Assembly (NCBI GenBank): GCA_900696515.1 | Contig: CAADGK010000015.1 | Coordinates: 62,001 to 126,000, forward strand | From: an uncultured Nitrosospira sp. | Lineage (GTDB): Bacteria > Nitrospirota > Nitrospiria > Nitrospirales > Nitrospiraceae | Length of the DNA: 64,000 nucleotides | Direction of reading: 5' to 3' | In this document: positions 35,526 through 45,276 of the stretch, one piece after another | Numbering within the stretch: the first letter of the stretch is position 1 | Layout: each line of letters starts with the position of its first letter | The notes under the pieces: generated by a model | The model's database searches: none | The model's input: only the letters and a program-made list of their open reading frames with translations | What the model was told of the DNA's origin: nothing | Program-made: the position numbers and the translations under genes

Positions 35526-35554
35526 TTGCACCTAATCGTCGGCTGGAGTATGTT
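35526..35554 (+). promoter_or_regulatory. Candidate promoter of the first 97-residue gene
   Basis: TTGCAC (35526-35531) and TATGTT (35549-35554) are separated by 17 bases. The ATG at 35561 begins six bases after the -10 hexamer, so the transcript would start at or near the ATG and be leaderless. The paralogue at 37291 has the same geometry. Confidence 0.5.
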
Positions 35555-35560
35555 GCGCCT

Positions 35561-35854
35561 ATGATTCGGACTCCCAAGCTGACGCATCGCTTTTTTCCTG
35601 CGGGGGCGGCCACGGCGGTCCTGGTTGGCTTCGTCTGTCTCTGTGTGGTCTTCCAAATGCTTGGAGCACCAGTCACCTTGCTTGGGCTCCTGACGTCGGA
35701 TACGCCGGTGGAGTCGCTTTCTGAAGACTTCTCCATTCCTCCTAGTACACCGGAACCGGGTCGTCCGAACCGGTCTCGTTTCACCGGGGAGACTCAATCC
35801 CTCCCGTATGTTCTCGTCTTATCGACCGCAGTCTTTCATCCTCCTCAAATGTAG
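35561..35854 (+). CDS. 97-residue membrane/exported protein, first paralogue
   Basis: This encodes 97 residues and is a paralogue of the protein at 37291-37584. The shared core is CLCVVFQMLG-x-PVTLL-x-LL (hydrophobic, about residues 26-45), then S-D-x-P-x-E-S-x-SEDFSI, and a C-terminal half with LP(Y/I)... STA(V/I)F(H/R)PP near the end. A basic N-terminus followed by the hydrophobic core suggests a membrane anchor or an unusual signal sequence. No known domain is recognised. No Shine-Dalgarno is present and the promoter-like sequence lies next to the ATG, consistent with leaderless translation. Confidence 0.72.
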   Translation: MIRTPKLTHRFFPAGAATAVLVGFVCLCVVFQMLGAPVTLLGLLTSDTPVESLSEDFSIPPSTPEPGRPNRSRFTGETQSLPYVLVLSTAVFHPPQM

Positions 35855-36003
35855 TCCTCGTTCGTATTCTATTCTGTCGTTGTACGCGAGCTGCTGAGTG
35901 GTTCACTCGTGGCTGTTCCGTGTCTCGTGATGCCGCGTGAACGATTCGGCGATCTCGAAATATCTTGCGAGCTTGCAGTAAGAGCAGGAGTGAAGGAGGG
36001 AAG

Positions 36004-36351
36004 GTGACAGGGATTGGTATGTTGGGAAATGGAGTGCTGTGGGTGGTGCTGCTGATCACGCTGAATGCGTCCGTGGCAGTGGCTAAGTATGGAACCTATG
36101 GACCAATCGTGCCTCAGCGTGCCTGGATTCGAGCCGAGAAGAGGCCGGCTGAGGAAGCGTTGCTCAATTTTAGAATAGAGGCGGCTGTCGATAGTGTTGT
36201 CCCCAAGGGGTGTGGTGCAACCATGCAACTGGATAGAGATCGACGACTGTTGGATCCGCAATTGCCGGCCTCCGATAAGCGGAATGCCTTGGATCCGTCC
36301 ACTTCCATCTTGTGTACTGAGGTCGAACCCGTCCAGCCGATGAATCAATGA
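36004..36351 (+). CDS. Small secreted protein of unknown function
   Basis: This encodes 115 residues. A signal peptide (about residues 6-27, LWVVLLITLNASVAVA) ends before KYGTYG. The mature part has a PIVPQRAWIRAEKRP segment, two cysteines (about residues 68 and 100) that could form a disulfide, and many prolines. GGAGGG lies three to four bases before GTG 36004; the ATG at 36019 is an alternative start. It is one of a run of small exported orphans between 35.5 and 38.2 kb. Confidence 0.55.
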   Translation: MTGIGMLGNGVLWVVLLITLNASVAVAKYGTYGPIVPQRAWIRAEKRPAEEALLNFRIEAAVDSVVPKGCGATMQLDRDRRLLDPQLPASDKRNALDPSTSILCTEVEPVQPMNQ

Positions 36352-36445
36352 TGCCTGTAGAGGTTTGTGTGTAACACCGGAGACCTTATGCGTCTCTCGA
36401 CGCGAGTCGGCGAGAGCCATCAACCAGGACTTGGAGGCATAGTGG

Positions 36446-36658
36446 ATGCCCATGCGATTTGACACGAAGTACTTTGAACTGGAGATTAGCAACTTTGTGT
36501 TTATCCGTGCGCCGTTGCTGGGGTCGGTATACATCGGCCCTGACTCTGGCTGTGGGTATCTTGTGCGGAGTCGACCGAATGAGCTTGATACCATGCGTTG
36601 CGACTATATCGAGCGGACCCGCCAAACGTTGCGAGCCCGCCACAATCGAACAAAATAG
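36446..36658 (+). CDS. Hypothetical 70-residue protein
   Basis: This frame encodes MPMRFDTKYFELEISN followed by a hydrophobic and aromatic stretch (FVFIRAPLLGSVYIGP), two cysteines and a basic C-terminal helix (IERTRQTLRARHNR). GGAGG eight bases upstream supports ATG 36446. The composition is protein-like and the alternative overlapping frame at 36459 is less so. The function is unknown, and it could still be non-coding. Confidence 0.4.
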   Translation: MPMRFDTKYFELEISNFVFIRAPLLGSVYIGPDSGCGYLVRSRPNELDTMRCDYIERTRQTLRARHNRTK

Positions 36659-36699
36659 CGGCAAGATCTAATCTGTATGGCCAGGTGACAGAGGAAGCC

Positions 36700-37041
36700 A
36701 TGTGCAAAGAATTATTCATGAAAATCGCTCTGACCGCGTTTGTCATGGCAGCCGGAACGATGACCATGATCGACCTCGTGTCGGCAGAACCCAATCAATT
36801 CGAGAAGGCAGCCGCGGCGAAGGTTTCCATCGACGAGGCGATTGCAACGGCGCGGGAGAACGTCTCAGGTACGGTCGTCAAAACCGAGCTGGAGCAGAAG
36901 CACGACCGGCTGATTTGGGAGATAGAAGTCGTCACCACGGAGAAACAGGTGAAGGCGGTCCACATTGATGCCCAGACGGGGACGATCATTGATGTGGAAG
37001 AAGAAAAGGTGAAGTCAAAACGGATTCATCGGCGGCATTGA
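36700..37041 (+). CDS. Secreted PepSY-domain protein
   Basis: This encodes 113 residues. A signal peptide (MKIALTAFVMAAGTMTMIDLVSA from residue 7) precedes one PepSY unit: VSIDEAIATARENVSGTVVKTELE, then IWEIEVVTTEKQVKAVHIDAQTGTIIDVEEE. PepSY domains often bind or inhibit proteases, or act as periplasmic sensors or chaperones. The C-terminus is basic and His-rich (KSKRIHRRH). GAGGAA four to five bases upstream supports ATG 36700. The name of the partner cannot be inferred from neighbours. Confidence 0.85.
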   Translation: MCKELFMKIALTAFVMAAGTMTMIDLVSAEPNQFEKAAAAKVSIDEAIATARENVSGTVVKTELEQKHDRLIWEIEVVTTEKQVKAVHIDAQTGTIIDVEEEKVKSKRIHRRH

Positions 37042-37254
37042 ACGTATAGGGAAAGATAGGACCAACAACCCCCGGGTGCATTGTTCCATTACCTTAGGAT
37101 CATCATTCCACCGGGTCTCTTCACTGACGCCCTCGTATGGTCGTGCCCATATTGAGCCGAGTGTCGCCCGTGCAGTACAACGAGTCAGTCATGATAGATC
37201 TCATGGATCGGTGCGCTTGGTGACCGGTACGAAACGATATCTCAACAAAGTCCC

Positions 37255-37284
37255 TTGACTACTGGTTGTGACAGTCGGTAGCTT
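37255..37284 (+). promoter_or_regulatory. Candidate promoter of the second 97-residue gene
   Basis: TTGACT (37255-37260) and TAGCTT (37279-37284) are separated by 18 bases, and the ATG at 37291 begins six bases after the -10 hexamer. This repeats the layout upstream of the paralogue at 35561 and again predicts a leaderless transcript. The rest of 37042-37254 holds no supported gene. Confidence 0.45.
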
Positions 37285-37290
37285 TTAGGC

Positions 37291-37584
37291 ATGAAGCGGA
37301 TTGCGGTGAGGGAAGCCTGCTTTTTCAACCGAGGTGTGGGCATAGCTTGTATCATCTCTTTGCTCTGCCTCTGCGTGGTATTCCAAATGCTTGGGGTGCC
37401 GGTCACGTTGCTTGCCTTGCTTGCGTCGGATTCGCCGATCGAATCGATTTCTGAAGATTTCTCCATTCTTCCGGTCATTTTGGAGCCAAGTACGTTCAAC
37501 CGTATTGCGTTATATGTCGAGTCTCAGCGACTTGTTTATCTCCCCATCTTTTCAACTGCCATCTTCCGCCCTCCTCTAGGGTAG
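37291..37584 (+). CDS. 97-residue membrane/exported protein, second paralogue
   Basis: This encodes 97 residues, exactly the length of the protein at 35561-35854. The hydrophobic core CLCVVFQMLGVPVTLLALLASD and the following SPIESISEDFSI align with it without gaps, while the N-terminus (MKRIAVREACFFNRG) and the middle differ. The identity is concentrated in residues 26-60. A membrane-anchored or exported location is likely. The function is unknown; conservation of length and core between two copies 1.7 kb apart argues that both are real genes. No Shine-Dalgarno is seen. Confidence 0.72.
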   Translation: MKRIAVREACFFNRGVGIACIISLLCLCVVFQMLGVPVTLLALLASDSPIESISEDFSILPVILEPSTFNRIALYVESQRLVYLPIFSTAIFRPPLG

Positions 37585-37810
37585 CCTTCGTTTGTACGCC
37601 AGTAGGTTTGTCTAGGCACTCAACTGAGTCCTCTGTGCTCGATCATTGAGCAGGGTGGCACGGTGTGTGTGCCACAGCGATTTTGATCGAAGGCCTGTTG
37701 CATGCAAGCCTTAGACATTGAACGATCATGAACGGTCATCCTCGTGCAGCGAACTAAACCAGTTGCCTGCATCGAGCGAAACAGACCATTGCCGAGAGTA
37801 GAGGAACAAC

Positions 37811-38206
37811 ATGTCGAAGATGAATCATTCCAATGGGGTATCATGCTCCAGTGGACAGACCTATCCGTTTCTTGGTGTGCCTCCATCCAGCACCTTTCGT
37901 GGGGCGGAAGATTTTCACAAGACGGTCGCTGCGGAAATTGCGAAGATGCGGGGCAACGAACTTGTGAGAGACCTATTGCAGGATTTTGACGCCGTAGATC
38001 CTGAACATGAGACGACGAGTGAGCCCGATGATTCTCAACCGCTCACGGTTGAGCCACCACTGACTTTATCGAAGATCATTCCAAAATTGACAGCCGTTGA
38101 GCGGCTCTGGATGGCTCGGATCGTGAGGGCGCATGGTAAGGAGGTGGTCCTCGCCCGGTGGCCGGCCTACGAAATCCATATCAATTACGTTCGGTACCTT
38201 CGTTAG
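37811..38206 (+). CDS. Hypothetical 131-residue protein
   Basis: This encodes 131 residues without a signal peptide. The first part is Ser/Pro-rich (SGQTYPFLGVPPSSTF), followed by a helical segment with AEDFHKTVAAEIAKMRGNELVRDLLQDF, an acidic linker, and a C-terminal basic region (VERLWMARIVRAHGKEVVLARWPAYEIHINYVRYL). GAGGAA sits before ATG 37811. I do not recognise the family. It lies 80 bases upstream of the NhaD gene on the same strand. The 37585-37810 interval before it holds nothing supported. Confidence 0.55.
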   Translation: MSKMNHSNGVSCSSGQTYPFLGVPPSSTFRGAEDFHKTVAAEIAKMRGNELVRDLLQDFDAVDPEHETTSEPDDSQPLTVEPPLTLSKIIPKLTAVERLWMARIVRAHGKEVVLARWPAYEIHINYVRYLR

Positions 38207-38285: not shown

Positions 38286-39647
38286 ATGACGAGTTTTGTT
38301 ACCCATTGGGCGGGCTATGCGGCGCTCGCCCTGTTTGTCGCCGCGTATCTGTTGGTGATCGTCGAAGAGTCCATTCATCTACGTAAATCGAAACCGGTCC
38401 TGGTGGCGGCGGGAGGAATCTGGATCCTAACGGCGCTGGCATACGGCACGCAACACCAATCTCATGCCGCTGCAGAAATTCTTCGGCATACCCTGCTTGA
38501 ATATGCCGAGCTGATGCTCTTTCTCCTGTCCGCCATGACCTTCATCAATACGATGAGTGAGCGCAACCTCTTTGAGGCGTTGCGGACCCGGCTTATTTCA
38601 TTGGGTTTATCACTGCGCAGCATATTTTGGCTCACCGGCATCCTGGCGTTTTTCATCTCGCCGGTTGCCGATAACCTCACGACGGCGTTGGTCATGGGTG
38701 CCGTGGTCACGGCGATCGGTGCAGGTAATGGACGCTTCATCGTCTTGGGCTGCATCAATGTCGTCGTGGCCGCCAACGCCGGTGGCACGTTCAGCCCGTT
38801 TGGGGATATCACGACGCTGATGGTCTGGCAAAAAGGCGTGATCCAATTCGGGGAGTTTCTGGCGTTGTTTGTTCCCTCACTTGTCAACTGGCTTGTGCCG
38901 GCAATGGCCATGGCCATGACAATCGGACGTGATAAGCCGACGGCCATCCTGGAACCGGTGGAGGTGAAGCATGGCGGCTACATCATCGTATTTTTGTTTC
39001 TGATCACCATAGCGGGTACGGTGGTGATGCATCATTTTTTGGAGATGCCTCCGTTTCTCGGCATGATGACCGGACTGGGGGTGCTCAAATCCTATGGACA
39101 TTGGATACGGCGGAAGGAATTGGTCGAATGGACGGACATCCCCATGTCTGATGACGAGCACACGGGGCAGAGGCCTGCGCTCTGGAAACCAGCCGTCAAA
39201 CCGTTCAATATTTTCATCAGCATGAAACGCGTGGAATGGGACACGCTGATGTTTTTTTACGGCATCATGCTCTGTGTCGGTGGCCTCGGGGCGCTGGGCT
39301 ATCTGACGGTTCTGTCCAGCCTCCTGTACCAAGGTCTAGGTGCAACGGCCGCCAATATCCTCGTTGGAATCTTATCAGCCGTGATAGATAACATCCCGAT
39401 TATGTTTGCCGTCTTGAGCATGAATCCGGATATGAACCTTGGCCAGTGGCTTCTGGTCACGTTGACCGCAGGGGTTGGAGGATCGCTTCTTTCGATCGGG
39501 TCTGCTGCCGGCGTGGCCCTGATGGGACAAGCACGAGGTGTCTATACCTTCTTTGCCCACTTGAAATGGACATGGGCGATCGCGTTGGGATATGCGGCCA
39601 GTATCGGCGTTCACTGGATGATGAACAGCCAATTGTTCACTCCCTGA
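38286..39647 (+). CDS. nhaD: NhaD-type Na+/H+ antiporter
   Basis: This encodes 453 residues with about 12-13 hydrophobic segments of the ion transporter (arsenite permease-related) superfamily. Characteristic stretches are SPVADNLTTALVMGAVV, NAGGTFSPFGDITTLMVW and, late, SAVIDNIPIMFAVL, with the Asp-Asn residues in the two pseudo-symmetric halves expected to carry ions. NhaD exchanges sodium for protons across the inner membrane. AGAGGG five bases upstream supports ATG 38286. Function by homology; substrate specificity is not proven. Confidence 0.88.
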   Translation: MTSFVTHWAGYAALALFVAAYLLVIVEESIHLRKSKPVLVAAGGIWILTALAYGTQHQSHAAAEILRHTLLEYAELMLFLLSAMTFINTMSERNLFEALRTRLISLGLSLRSIFWLTGILAFFISPVADNLTTALVMGAVVTAIGAGNGRFIVLGCINVVVAANAGGTFSPFGDITTLMVWQKGVIQFGEFLALFVPSLVNWLVPAMAMAMTIGRDKPTAILEPVEVKHGGYIIVFLFLITIAGTVVMHHFLEMPPFLGMMTGLGVLKSYGHWIRRKELVEWTDIPMSDDEHTGQRPALWKPAVKPFNIFISMKRVEWDTLMFFYGIMLCVGGLGALGYLTVLSSLLYQGLGATAANILVGILSAVIDNIPIMFAVLSMNPDMNLGQWLLVTLTAGVGGSLLSIGSAAGVALMGQARGVYTFFAHLKWTWAIALGYAASIGVHWMMNSQLFTP

Positions 39648-40658: not shown

Positions 40659-40675
40659 CATAGGAGGGAATGGCG

Positions 40676-43087
40676 ATGAGTCGGACGATAGATCATGGCA
40701 GAGCCGAGCAGTTTTTCTGGTGGGTCACCACGCACGCCAAGGCGCTTATTCTCGCGGGAGTCATATTGGTAGTGGGCCTGGCCGCATTCATCCCGCAGTT
40801 GACCATGGATACGTCGGCTGATTCGTTCATTGCGAAGGATAACCCCGCCCGCGTCTATCGAGATCAAGTCAAACAGGTCTTCGGCTTATCCGATCCCTTT
40901 GTGATCGCCGTCATTAATCGTGGGGCCACCGGCGTCTTTAACCCCGAGACATTGCAATTGGTGCAGTGGCTGACAGATCGGGTCAAAACCATTCCCAACG
41001 TTGACCCTGATCGAGTGATGAGCCTGGCCACGGAGAACAATATTGTCGGCACTGCTGACGGCATGCAAGTGAAGAAATTCTTCCAGCCGCCGCCTGTCAC
41101 GCAGATTCAGGCCGATACACTTCGTGCGGCGATCGCTGATTTTCCGCTCTACCAGGGCAGCCTGGTCGCTCGCGACGATACGGCGACCTTAATCATGGCT
41201 GAAGTTCTTGACGAGATGAAGAGCGAGGCGACGTATCAGGCATTCATGAGCCTGGTTCAAGAGGCCCCTCAGTTGCCATGGGTCGAGCTCCATGTGGCCG
41301 GCGAAGGGGCGATCTCCGGATATCTCTTCAACTACATTGACCACGATGCGAAGCGAATCAATCCGGTTGTGGCGATCGTTATCACTATTGTCCTTTTCAT
41401 CGCTTTTCGGACGGTGCGCGGGATGCTGCTGCCGAATTTGGTCGTGCTCGGCACGGCGGCGGCCGCTTTCGGGACCATGGCTGCGGGCGGCGTTCCATTC
41501 TATGTGATTACCAACGGTCTCCTTTCCATTTTAATCGGGATGGCGGTCGCGGAACCGATCCATCTCCTCACGCACTATTATCAAGTGGGTCGAGCTCATC
41601 CGCATCTCACTCATCAGGAAATGATTGTTCGTACCATGACCGACGTCTGGAAACCCCTGACGATGACTATTCTGACCACAGTGGTTGGCTTCATTTCGCT
41701 CTATGTGTCAGGCGGGATGCCGCCGATGCAGTATTTTGGTCTCTTTGCGTCCATCGGAATTGTGGGGGCTTGGGTCTATGGCTTGGTCTTTATTCCGGCT
41801 GCATTGATGTTGGTGCCATTCAAGCCTTCCCCTGCGATCAAAGGCGACCAGATGATTGACCGCTATGGTCAGCTCGTGACGGCATTGGGCCGCTTTGCGA
41901 TTCGCCGACCAAGGCTCATTCTCAGCGTGACACTCATCGTTGCCGTATTGGGGACGATCGGTGCGTTCCGGCTCGTCATCGAAGAGGCAACGATTGAAAA
42001 CTTTCAGCACGATGAACCCATTTATCGCGCAGATACAGTGATCAACCAGGTGATGGACGGAACCAATTACCTGGATATTGTGGTGGAGACTCCAACAGCT
42101 GAGAGCTTGTTCAACCCGGATGCACTGCATCGCATCGAGACGCTCCAGAGATTTGTCGAAACGTTGCCTGGTGTTGGTGGGACGACGTCGGTGGTCGACT
42201 ATGTGAAGCAGATGAATCGGTCGATTAATGAAAACCGCAAGGAGGCGTATCGCATCCCCGATAACCGAGACCTTGTGGCGCAACTCTTTCTGCTCTACTC
42301 CGCCTCCTCCGATCCGACAGATTTCCAGCAGGAAATTGACTACGACTATCGACGGGCCAATATTCGCACCAGCATCAAAACGTCCCATTATGTGAACAAC
42401 CGGGTGGTGATTGAACAGGTTGAACGGTATCTCCTCGAACAATTCAATACCAATGAGATCGTGGGGCATGTGAGCGGGCGTGTGAACGTCAACCATCATT
42501 GGTTAGAGACCATTGCCTCCACACACTTCGTCAGTGAAGGCATCGCCTTGGTCATTAGCTGGCTTATGGCGTCCTGGCTGTTCCGTTCACTTGGTGCCGG
42601 ACTCTTTACGCTGGTGCCGGTGTTTGCTTCTGTCCTTCTCGTGTACGGCATTATGGGATTTGGTGGAATCTGGCTCGCGGTGGGGACCTCCATGTTTGCG
42701 GCCATTGCGACCGGGTTGGCGATCGATTTTGGCCAGCATACGACTCAGCGGATTCGTGAGCTCATGCGATCCGGTACGGGCACCTTTGAGGAACGGATGG
42801 CGCACTTTTTCCCGTCTACGGGGCGGGCGCTGTTTTTCAACTTCCTGGCCATGACGCTGGGGTTCGGCACCCTCATGATCAGTGCGGTGCCGCCACTGAT
42901 TCGTTTCGGGGCGTTGGTAGCTATGGCCATGGCCGTGAGTTTTCTCGCCAGTATTACGGTGATGCCGGCACTGGCGACGGTGTTTCGTCCACGCTTCCTT
43001 GGGTTTGAGACACCCGATCAGGAAGCAACTCAGGCAGTACAACTGAACCCGGTCTTATCCGGATCTACCATGACGGAAGGAAGGTAA
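40676..43087 (+). CDS. RND/MMPL-superfamily exporter
   Basis: This encodes 803 residues with two symmetric halves of about six transmembrane helices, each with a large periplasmic loop after its first helix. The half-repeat is visible: VVAIVITIVLFIAFRTVRG and SILIGMAVAEPIHLLTHYY in the first half, FAAIATGLAIDFGQHTTQRIRE in the second. This is the COG1033/MMPL type of RND protein, which often moves lipids or sterols rather than drugs. AGGAGG eight bases before ATG 40676 supports the start over the ATG two codons upstream. The next two genes encode a LolA-like and a beta-barrel protein, making an envelope-spanning system plausible. Confidence 0.87.
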   Translation: MSRTIDHGRAEQFFWWVTTHAKALILAGVILVVGLAAFIPQLTMDTSADSFIAKDNPARVYRDQVKQVFGLSDPFVIAVINRGATGVFNPETLQLVQWLTDRVKTIPNVDPDRVMSLATENNIVGTADGMQVKKFFQPPPVTQIQADTLRAAIADFPLYQGSLVARDDTATLIMAEVLDEMKSEATYQAFMSLVQEAPQLPWVELHVAGEGAISGYLFNYIDHDAKRINPVVAIVITIVLFIAFRTVRGMLLPNLVVLGTAAAAFGTMAAGGVPFYVITNGLLSILIGMAVAEPIHLLTHYYQVGRAHPHLTHQEMIVRTMTDVWKPLTMTILTTVVGFISLYVSGGMPPMQYFGLFASIGIVGAWVYGLVFIPAALMLVPFKPSPAIKGDQMIDRYGQLVTALGRFAIRRPRLILSVTLIVAVLGTIGAFRLVIEEATIENFQHDEPIYRADTVINQVMDGTNYLDIVVETPTAESLFNPDALHRIETLQRFVETLPGVGGTTSVVDYVKQMNRSINENRKEAYRIPDNRDLVAQLFLLYSASSDPTDFQQEIDYDYRRANIRTSIKTSHYVNNRVVIEQVERYLLEQFNTNEIVGHVSGRVNVNHHWLETIASTHFVSEGIALVISWLMASWLFRSLGAGLFTLVPVFASVLLVYGIMGFGGIWLAVGTSMFAAIATGLAIDFGQHTTQRIRELMRSGTGTFEERMAHFFPSTGRALFFNFLAMTLGFGTLMISAVPPLIRFGALVAMAMAVSFLASITVMPALATVFRPRFLGFETPDQEATQAVQLNPVLSGSTMTEGR

Positions 43088-43092
43088 ATCAT

Positions 43093-43905
43093 ATGCGATC
43101 GCACATCCAGAAACTATTTTTGGCGCTCTTTCTGTTGAGTCCTTTGGCCGTATCCGATGTTGCAGCGGAATCCTTACTTGCCGGGGAAGAAATTGCTCGA
43201 CGCATCAATGCGCGTAACGAAGGAGAGGTCGTCTCACGTTTTATCACGATGGCCATGACGGATCGCAGCGGCACCGAACGGGTGCGGGAAACAAAGAGCC
43301 TCCGAAAGTATTTTGGGAAAGAGAAACGTACCATCATCTTCTATTTGAGTCCGTCGAATATCAAAGATACGGCCTTTTTGACCTACGACTATCCGGAAGC
43401 CGATCGAGATGATGATCAATGGTTGTACTTGCCCGCCGCCAGAAAGGTTCGCCGTATTTCCGCGTCTGATCGCGGGGACTACTTTCTCGGGACGGACTTT
43501 ACGTATGAAGACATTCGCAAGGAAACCAAGGTTGGGATCGAGGATTACTCGTGGAAAACTCTTGGCGAGGAAACCATCGATGGTCATCGGTGCTTTCTCG
43601 TTGAAGAGATTCCTGTGAATGAAAAAATGGCCCAGGAGTTGGGCTACAGCAAAGTGCAGTCCTGGATCGATGCCGAGATCTGGATGGTCCGTCAAGCCAA
43701 ATACTGGGATGTGGCGGGTAATCCGTTGAAGACTCTCCAGATCAAGGAGATCAAATTGATCCAGGACATCTGGACCGCCCATCAACTATCCGTCGAAAAC
43801 CACAAGACCGGCCACAAGACTGTGTTTACCTTCAAAGATGTGACCTATGGACAAAGTGTCAAGGATGAAATGTTCACAGAAGATGCTTTGCGACGGGGAT
43901 ATTAA
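43093..43905 (+). CDS. Outer-membrane lipoprotein-sorting (LolA-like) protein
   Basis: This encodes 270 residues. The signal peptide (MRSHIQKLFLALFLL to about residue 25) leads into a LolA-like fold of the kind annotated as outer membrane lipoprotein-sorting protein: AGEEIARRINARNEGE, DDQWLYLPAARKVRRIS, DRGDYFLGTDFTYEDI, and a C-terminal beta strand region. Such proteins are found beside MMPL-type RND exporters and are thought to carry lipids or lipoproteins across the periplasm. It begins six bases after the RND stop with a GAAGGAAGG ribosome-binding region. Confidence 0.85.
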   Translation: MRSHIQKLFLALFLLSPLAVSDVAAESLLAGEEIARRINARNEGEVVSRFITMAMTDRSGTERVRETKSLRKYFGKEKRTIIFYLSPSNIKDTAFLTYDYPEADRDDDQWLYLPAARKVRRISASDRGDYFLGTDFTYEDIRKETKVGIEDYSWKTLGEETIDGHRCFLVEEIPVNEKMAQELGYSKVQSWIDAEIWMVRQAKYWDVAGNPLKTLQIKEIKLIQDIWTAHQLSVENHKTGHKTVFTFKDVTYGQSVKDEMFTEDALRRGY

Positions 43906-43911
43906 GAACCC

Positions 43912-45276
43912 ATGCCAAGTGCATATACGAGGTATGGACTCCTGGCGCTGGCGGGGTGGCTCATCGCCGCCAGCGCCCTTGCCGAGAGCACGCCAGACGA
44001 GACGAAATCGAGTCAGTCGAGCAATCATCGCTTTAGCGCCGTGCTTGAATCGGAAGCGACGTATGGGATGGCACGAGATCGTGCCAATAAAATGGAGATG
44101 CTGGTTGAACCGCAGTGGGAATATCGGTGGAGTGACGATACCCGTATCACCGGGATCGCTCGGCTGTATATGGAAGGGTTCGACCACCTCGAACCTGGTC
44201 GACTGAGCCAAGGGGAGGTTGCGCCGAATTCCCGACGTCTCCAACTCGGTGACCGAACCGACATGGAACTGCGCGAGTTCTACCTGCGGACGCAACTCTG
44301 GGGGATGCATCTTACGCTGGGCAAACAGCAGGTTGTTTGGGGGAAGGCCGATGGTCTGAAACTGCTCGACGTCGTCAATCCACAAAACTTCAGGGAGTTC
44401 ATTCTGGATAACTTCGACGATTCTCGTATTCCGCTGTGGACATTTAATGCCGAATTCCCGGTTGGGGGCGGCAATCTGCAATTGCTTTGGATCCCGGATC
44501 GCACCTATCATCGGCTGCCTCAAGCAGGTGGCACGTTTGCCTTTCACTCCCCGCTGGTCGTTCCCCAAGCGCCTCCTGGTGTTGCGGTGAACCTTCAGCC
44601 GCTTGAACGTCCTAACAATATCGTGATGGATTCCGACATCGGCATGCGGTTTTCAAAGTTTTGGCATGGCTGGGACCTCACGGTGAACTATCTCTACCAC
44701 TATGCGGATTTCCCTGTGTTCTTTCAGTCGGTGCTTCTGGCCCCGAGCGGCACCACGGTTACGGTGAACCCTCGTTATGAGCGCAACCATCTCATCGGGG
44801 GATCGGTGAGTAACGCTTTCGGCAATCTGACCATGCGCGGGGAAGCAATTTACAATACCGATCAATTCGTGTTGACCAGGAATCGAGGGGACGATGATGG
44901 TGTGATCAAGAGCGGGGAAATAGCCTATGTCCTGGGGCTGGATTGGTCCGGCATTCGGGATACATTGGTGAGTCTCCAGCTGTTTCAAAGTTGGTTATTC
45001 CATTCCGCCGACGGCATGGTACGCGACACACTAGACACCACGAGTACCGTACTACTGAGGCGACATTTCTTGAATGAAACATTAGAAACTGAAGTGCTCT
45101 GGTTGCAGAGCGTCAATCAAGGCGATGGACTCGTCCGACCAAAAATCAGTTATGAGTTGCGGGATAACTTAAAAATATGGACAGGATTTGACCTGTTCTA
45201 TGGCGATCGCAATGGGTTGTTTGGACAATTTGATCGGAACGATAGGCTCGTAATCGGAATGGAGATGGGGCTCTAA
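43912..45276 (+). CDS. Outer-membrane beta-barrel protein (DUF1302-like)
   Basis: This encodes 454 residues. A signal peptide (to about residue 24, AASALAES) is followed by alternating polar/aromatic strands typical of a barrel, including REFYLRTQLWGMHLTLGKQQVVWGKADG. The latter matches the DUF1302-like or alginate-porin-like pattern. The last residue is a Leu in VIGMEMGL rather than the classical Phe. It begins six bases after the LolA-like stop, completing an inner-membrane, periplasm and outer-membrane set. Cargo is unknown. Confidence 0.75.
   Translation: MPSAYTRYGLLALAGWLIAASALAESTPDETKSSQSSNHRFSAVLESEATYGMARDRANKMEMLVEPQWEYRWSDDTRITGIARLYMEGFDHLEPGRLSQGEVAPNSRRLQLGDRTDMELREFYLRTQLWGMHLTLGKQQVVWGKADGLKLLDVVNPQNFREFILDNFDDSRIPLWTFNAEFPVGGGNLQLLWIPDRTYHRLPQAGGTFAFHSPLVVPQAPPGVAVNLQPLERPNNIVMDSDIGMRFSKFWHGWDLTVNYLYHYADFPVFFQSVLLAPSGTTVTVNPRYERNHLIGGSVSNAFGNLTMRGEAIYNTDQFVLTRNRGDDDGVIKSGEIAYVLGLDWSGIRDTLVSLQLFQSWLFHSADGMVRDTLDTTSTVLLRRHFLNETLETEVLWLQSVNQGDGLVRPKISYELRDNLKIWTGFDLFYGDRNGLFGQFDRNDRLVIGMEMGL

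Follow-up and report, generated by a model that had tools for sequence, protein, structure and literature searches.

The stretch of DNA analyzed here, 64,000 nucleotides at its full length and called the window below, carries two genes of a protein family that is previously undescribed and, in the genomes sampled, restricted to Nitrospira-type bacteria. We propose, giving the proposal an even chance, that each copy is a cis-acting regulatory leader ORF at the head of a transcription unit. Copy 1 (35561–35854, forward strand) encodes a 97-residue protein with one transmembrane (TM) helix and the C-terminus VFHPPQM before a TAG stop codon, and copy 2 (37291–37584, forward strand) encodes a protein of the same length that ends in IFRPPLG, again before TAG. 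A preliminary description had called the two genes paralogues, and the proteins were indeed 55% identical over 85 residues without gaps (BLASTP E value 7e-33). It had also assigned them to an uncharacterized membrane or exported family; the uncharacterized membrane family stands, but ‘exported’ proved incomplete, and the most informative features had been missed. These are F[H/R]PP-x-x-stop with selected codons, a constant linker length, a predicted disordered tail, and a recurrent place before functionally unrelated cistrons led by a Shine-Dalgarno (SD) sequence; as a set, they point to a regulatory leader ORF rather than to an ordinary membrane protein.

An iterated profile search collected approximately 90 distinct members from Nitrospira and a few sister genera. 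Homologues with the core that the preliminary description had singled out do exist elsewhere: a search of relatives found members in 36 of 78, all of the same genus, and the few sister genera add to these. In a phylum-wide sample, 40 of 295 genomes had members; each of the 40 belonged either to the genus or to one of a few sister genera in a single taxonomic family, and no member was found outside that taxonomic family in this sample. All named matches were from Nitrospira or Nitrospirota, which places the window in a Nitrospira genome. No Pfam or NCBIfam model matched either protein at E values up to 10, and the open-licence literature held no description of the family or of leaderless genes in Nitrospira. 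Since dN/dS between members was 0.2–0.4, the members are protein-coding genes under moderate constraint; these values are also compatible with a functional protein, which counts against the leader reading.

Besides the two window copies, the host genome has one further copy on each of the contigs C101 and C52 and one broken copy on C101. A broken copy, read in two frames and lying directly ahead of an MscS-type channel gene, was seen in each of two genomes (L055:4591–4876, on host contig C101, and L059:345–630). The maximum per genome was 11 dispersed copies, in the Nitrospira genome G314 (L127–L134), where some copies lie ahead of a response-regulator-like gene and others ahead of two related small membrane genes.

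Each window copy is preceded by a sigma70-like promoter, assigned from the sequence and the family-wide conservation of the layout. The copy 1 promoter (35526–35554, forward strand) consists of TTGCAC (35526–35531), a 17-nt spacer, and TATGTT (35549–35554), followed by GCGCCT and the ATG at 35561. The copy 2 promoter (37255–37284, forward strand) consists of TTGACT (37255–37260), an 18-nt spacer, and TAGCTT (37279–37284), followed by TTAGGC and the ATG at 37291. For both copies, we could thus confirm the earlier observations that the -10 hexamer ends six bases before the ATG and that there is no SD sequence at a usable distance; a GGAG approximately 16 nt upstream of the copy 1 start overlaps the -10 region. 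A stricter promoter scan (9 of 12 consensus bases) called neither promoter. The promoter evidence from single sequences is therefore weak, and the case rests on comparison.

For the comparison, only protein alignment was used to set the family starts. In 63 of 88 members, and in 45 of the 68 non-redundant ones (66%), the highest-scoring sigma70-like site ended 4–8 nt before the ATG, as against 7% expected from dinucleotide shuffles, with z values of about 7–12 at distances of 5–8 nt. The leaderless layout noticed in the two window copies is thus conserved across the genus. SD 5-mers occurred in only two of the 68 non-redundant upstream regions. Among gene clusters taken as controls from these loci, 3 of 75 had the layout, although this control is rough, its starts having been called mechanically. 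When 455 kb of the host genome was scanned for ATG-ORFs of at least 90 codons with TTGNNN-N16-18-TANNNT 4–8 nt upstream, only 11 were found, three of which were family members. Since the layout is family-wide, SD 5-mers are few, and the arrangement is absent from neighboring genes and rare in the genome, leaderless transcription of the family genes is likely. A single shared promoter regulon was rejected, as the promoter sequences were subfamily-specific; a genome search with one family-type promoter pattern gave a single, unrelated match.

The encoded proteins begin with a short, often basic N-terminal tail, followed by one helix carrying LCxCVxxQMLGxPVTL, by SEDFS, by a poorly conserved linker, and by LP[VI][LF]xTSVF[H/R]PP. 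The C-terminal F[H/R]PP was present in nearly all intact members ([F/Y/L][H/R]PP across the family), and in members from sister genera, the motif of the helix and an [FL][H/R]PP at the C-terminus were retained even when the rest was unrecognizable. The spacing from QMLG to F[H/R]PP was 56–58 residues in 88 of 90 members, with nearly free linker residues. An AlphaFold2 prediction for copy 2 showed one helix at residues 8–45 and pLDDT below 50 for residues 48–88 (mean pLDDT 57), and the part C-terminal of the helix is accordingly predicted to be disordered. The conservation of the TM segment exceeds what mere targeting would need, which counts against the leader reading.

At the C-terminal end, conservation extended to the codons. 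The F-H-P-P codons of copy 1, TTTCATCCTCCT (35834–35845, forward strand), form an anti-SD-like block two codons before the stop, as judged from codon bias and SD pairing, and the F-R-P-P-L codons of copy 2, TTCCGCCCTCCTCTA (37564–37578, forward strand), were assigned from the sequence and SD pairing. The first proline of the PP pair was encoded by CCT in 69 of 90 members and the second by CCT or CCC in 83 of 90. In the same genes, the conserved TM-helix proline was encoded by CCT in 9 of 88 cases, and CCT accounts for 18% of prolines genome-wide. Exactly two residues, both of free identity, separated F[H/R]PP from the stop codon in 72 of 90 members, and the stop codon of these was TAG in 57, TAA in 15, and TGA in none, compared with 48% TGA in long genes of the genome. 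The codon and stop counts come from related sequences and are hence non-independent; the helix proline serves as a control on the same tree. The selection on the PP codons, the stop codon, and the tail length suggests a role for the end of translation or for the RNA at this site.

Most members lie 75–290 nt ahead of SD-led cistrons that are mutually unrelated. Behind copy 1, after a gap of 149 nt, is a cistron for a small exported protein of 115 residues (36004–36351, forward strand) with a GTG start and a position conserved in relatives; its SD, AAGGAGG (35993–35999, forward strand), is predicted to pair with the 3' end of copy 1 with a probability of 0.97, and a gene for a PepSY protein also lies behind copy 1. 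Copy 2 is followed by the SD region TAGAGGA (37799–37805, forward strand; identified by sequence and the pairing test), a cistron of 131 residues in conserved position and with no Pfam match (37811–38206, forward strand), and, behind the copy 2 unit, an NhaD/CitMHS-type ion transporter gene in conserved synteny (38286–39647, forward strand; Pfam CitMHS, E value 5e-34). Other followers include a lipoprotein gene near a SulP-carbonic anhydrase fusion, an ABC flippase-like gene, a Gfo/Idh/MocA-like enzyme, an SDR, and a trehalose-phosphatase-like gene, the names without a Pfam match having been assigned by reading the sequence. None of 93 gene calls had a same-strand follower closer than 30 nt, compared with 41% of co-directional pairs in the genome. 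The overall frequency of a co-directional follower was approximately 90% versus 81% in the genome, a difference that carries no weight.

According to a quick gene caller, 20 of 113 copies lacked a co-directional follower. Behind many of these apparently follower-less copies, at a distance of approximately 130–270 nt, lies a conserved cistron for a 29-residue membrane microprotein, MPGMNDALSYIFLGxFVFAIIVFALFSAG (L013, L020, L021, some of L024–L031, L128, and L146). Its SD sequence is strong, and length-limited gene callers miss it. We therefore discarded the possibility of numerous stand-alone copies. The remaining exceptions are mainly a comammox-like clade (L032, L034, L035, L036, L048, and L053); in this clade and in L143, the copy lacks a co-directional follower, which counts against the leader reading, and yet F[H/R]PP is retained, with CCTCCT at its two prolines in most cases (CCTCCY in the clade). 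Opposite the copy, the clade has a convergent gene, which we read as a GH15-type glycosidase.

Pairing between the leader tail and the next ribosome-binding site was examined at the RNA level. TCCTCTA in the tail of copy 2 (37572–37578) is exactly complementary to TAGAGGA at the next SD. In a consensus fold (alifold) of 13 microprotein loci, the F-H-P-P codons paired with the downstream SD at -32.1, compared with -4.9 ± 2.3 after column shuffling, a lenient control since shuffling also breaks the conserved block of adjacent columns. In 58 of 82 loci, the tail–SD duplex was stronger than when the Pro codons were redrawn from the usage in the genome (p = 8e-7), and SD sequences behind the family exceeded those of other genes in strength (p = 5e-4). 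Cognate duplexes were, however, no better than swapped ones across the 82 loci (p = 0.20), and co-evolution of cognate tails and SD sequences was rejected on this ground. Thus, since the duplexes exceed those with resampled codons and yet cognate and swapped pairs are equal, the predicted pairing is plausible but generic, as a CCTCC will pair with whatever SD is present, and this counts against the leader reading. Intrinsic terminators behind the copies were rejected, as there was no enrichment over shuffles, and a Rho-type bias of C over G after the stop codon was also rejected, as none was found past the first 40 nt.

The computations delineated the family, its promoter–ATG layout, the C-terminal and codon conservation, the fixed spacing, the predicted disorder, and the downstream cistrons. 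An own promoter, a putative leaderless start, a chain predicted to insert into the membrane, a fixed linker predicted to be disordered, PP with selected codons near the stop codon, and a long gap to an SD-led cistron amount to the layout of a leader ORF; leaderless initiation in the cell, pausing, a regulatory effect, and a signal are the parts of the model that we infer. Under the leader model, transcription would begin at the ATG or within one to two bases of it, and ribosomes would load the leaderless message without an SD sequence. The N-terminal helix of the nascent chain would enter the membrane as the ribosome nears the C-terminal F[H/R]PP, and decoding of Pro-Pro would slow the ribosome two codons before the UAG or UAA stop. 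The F-H-P-P codons would form an anti-SD-like block able to base-pair with the ribosome-binding site of the cistron that follows at 75–290 nt. While a ribosome translates or pauses there, the block would be open and the next cistron could be translated; with the ribosome absent or released, the block would close or termination would be allowed. In this way, membrane insertion or a membrane-linked stress may determine how strongly ion-transport and envelope genes are expressed. In its widest and more doubtful form, the proposal describes a Nitrospiraceae-wide system in which up to 11 leaderless, membrane-inserted leaders, each with a new anti-SD-coded F[H/R]PP pause two codons before an RF1-type stop codon, might control many unrelated ion-homeostasis and envelope operons per bacterium.

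The main rival to the leader model is a trans-acting single-pass membrane helper or sensor whose F[H/R]PP binds a periplasmic partner, with paralogues specialized to ion or envelope systems and the leaderless start as a mere promoter habit. The strong conservation of the TM motif LCxCVxxQMLGxPVTL and of SEDFS, the purifying selection, and the clade that keeps copies without a co-directional follower are what such a protein would lead one to expect. We nevertheless regard it as somewhat unlikely: it leaves unexplained the selection of CCT/CCC at both prolines, the missing TGA, the tail that is fixed at two codons although its residues are free, and the constant length of a linker that is unconserved and predicted to be disordered, and the downstream genes are mutually unrelated.

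A purely RNA-level coupling, in which the peptide is of minor importance and the anti-SD-like block near the stop codon shuts the next cistron unless the leader is translated, could account for the pairing of the block with the SD in the alifold and duplex tests, and in its favor, TTYCAYCCTCCY resembles the 3' end of 16S rRNA. However, cognate pairing was no better than non-cognate, the TM region and SEDFS are conserved as amino acids, and the block is retained where no gene follows, making this explanation improbable. It is less probable still that the pattern is ordinary Nitrospira gene structure and that the genes are unremarkable lineage-specific small proteins. The open-licence literature gave no mapped Nitrospira promoters or leaderless surveys, which leaves room for this view, but just 11 such ATG-ORFs were found in 455 kb, three of them from the family, and the layout is missing from neighboring genes.

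Among known systems, the family is closest in layout to CruR of Bordetella, a DUF2946 protein with RAPP three residues from its end and Rho-dependent control (PMC9426467), and CutF of Rhodobacter, an exported leader that works together with a stem-loop covering the next SD (PMC9973294). As in these, a small exported or membrane ORF stands first in an operon, here a predicted one, with a long intergenic region (PMC9426467, PMC9973294), and a C-terminal Pro-Pro lies near the stop codon at conserved spacing (here two residues in 72/90 and 56–58 residues in 88/90). In the present family, the next cistron is SD-led in most loci. Unlike CruR and CutF, the family carries F[H/R]PP in place of RAPP, precedes genes other than copper genes, and has a putative leaderless start. 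Neither protein matched the DUF2946 profile of Pfam at E values up to 10, and the only counterpart of the CxxC/CxxxC metal site was a CxC inside the TM helix.

RAPP-type arrest peptides (ApdA, ApdP, and the SecM-like and RQH classes) act, or are thought to act, as regulatory leaders (PMC10987492, PMC12992588). As described there, they share with the present family an N-terminal localization signal or TM segment, a variable middle, a C-terminal di-proline, an upstream regulatory position, and an unfolded C-terminal part (here predicted, with pLDDT below 50 at residues 48–88). F[H/R]PP is not a known arrest motif, which counts against the leader reading; it was not among the motifs described in the passages covered, and the family genes were not upstream of sec or yidC in the loci examined; instead of RAPP-like motifs (R/H/Q-A/G-P-P, RAGP, and similar), the family has [F/Y/L][H/R]PP. 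Thus, since there is no DUF2946 match, no CxxC, and no RAPP-type motif, the family does not belong to these groups, and we infer by analogy that it may work like them. CopL and mgtL-like leaders were also considered and set aside. With bacterial leaderless genes, the family shares a -10 box 5–8 nt before the ATG and the lack of an SD sequence; unlike in such genes generally, the layout here is conserved across a single paralogous family.

Regulatory nascent chains are usually known in numbers of one or two per genome and with a handful of motifs, and Nitrospira are the main nitrite oxidizers and comammox bacteria. If the leader model is true, a multi-copy family with leaderless initiation built in would head many operons in one genus, two poorly connected topics, regulatory nascent chains and leaderless initiation, would be joined, and Nitrospira would have an additional level at which ion and envelope genes are controlled.

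Two further observations concern the surroundings of the family. A second lineage-specific multi-copy family (L079:2143–3433 and relatives), with proteins of approximately 200 residues that are often lipoprotein-like and have no Pfam match, was found repeatedly behind the leader family and ahead of SulP-carbonic anhydrase. In the window, positions 40670–45276 contain a gene for an MMPL/RND-type transporter, followed by outer-membrane lipoprotein-sorting-like and DUF1302-like genes, and this group is flanked by two MarR-like regulators (all named by eye).
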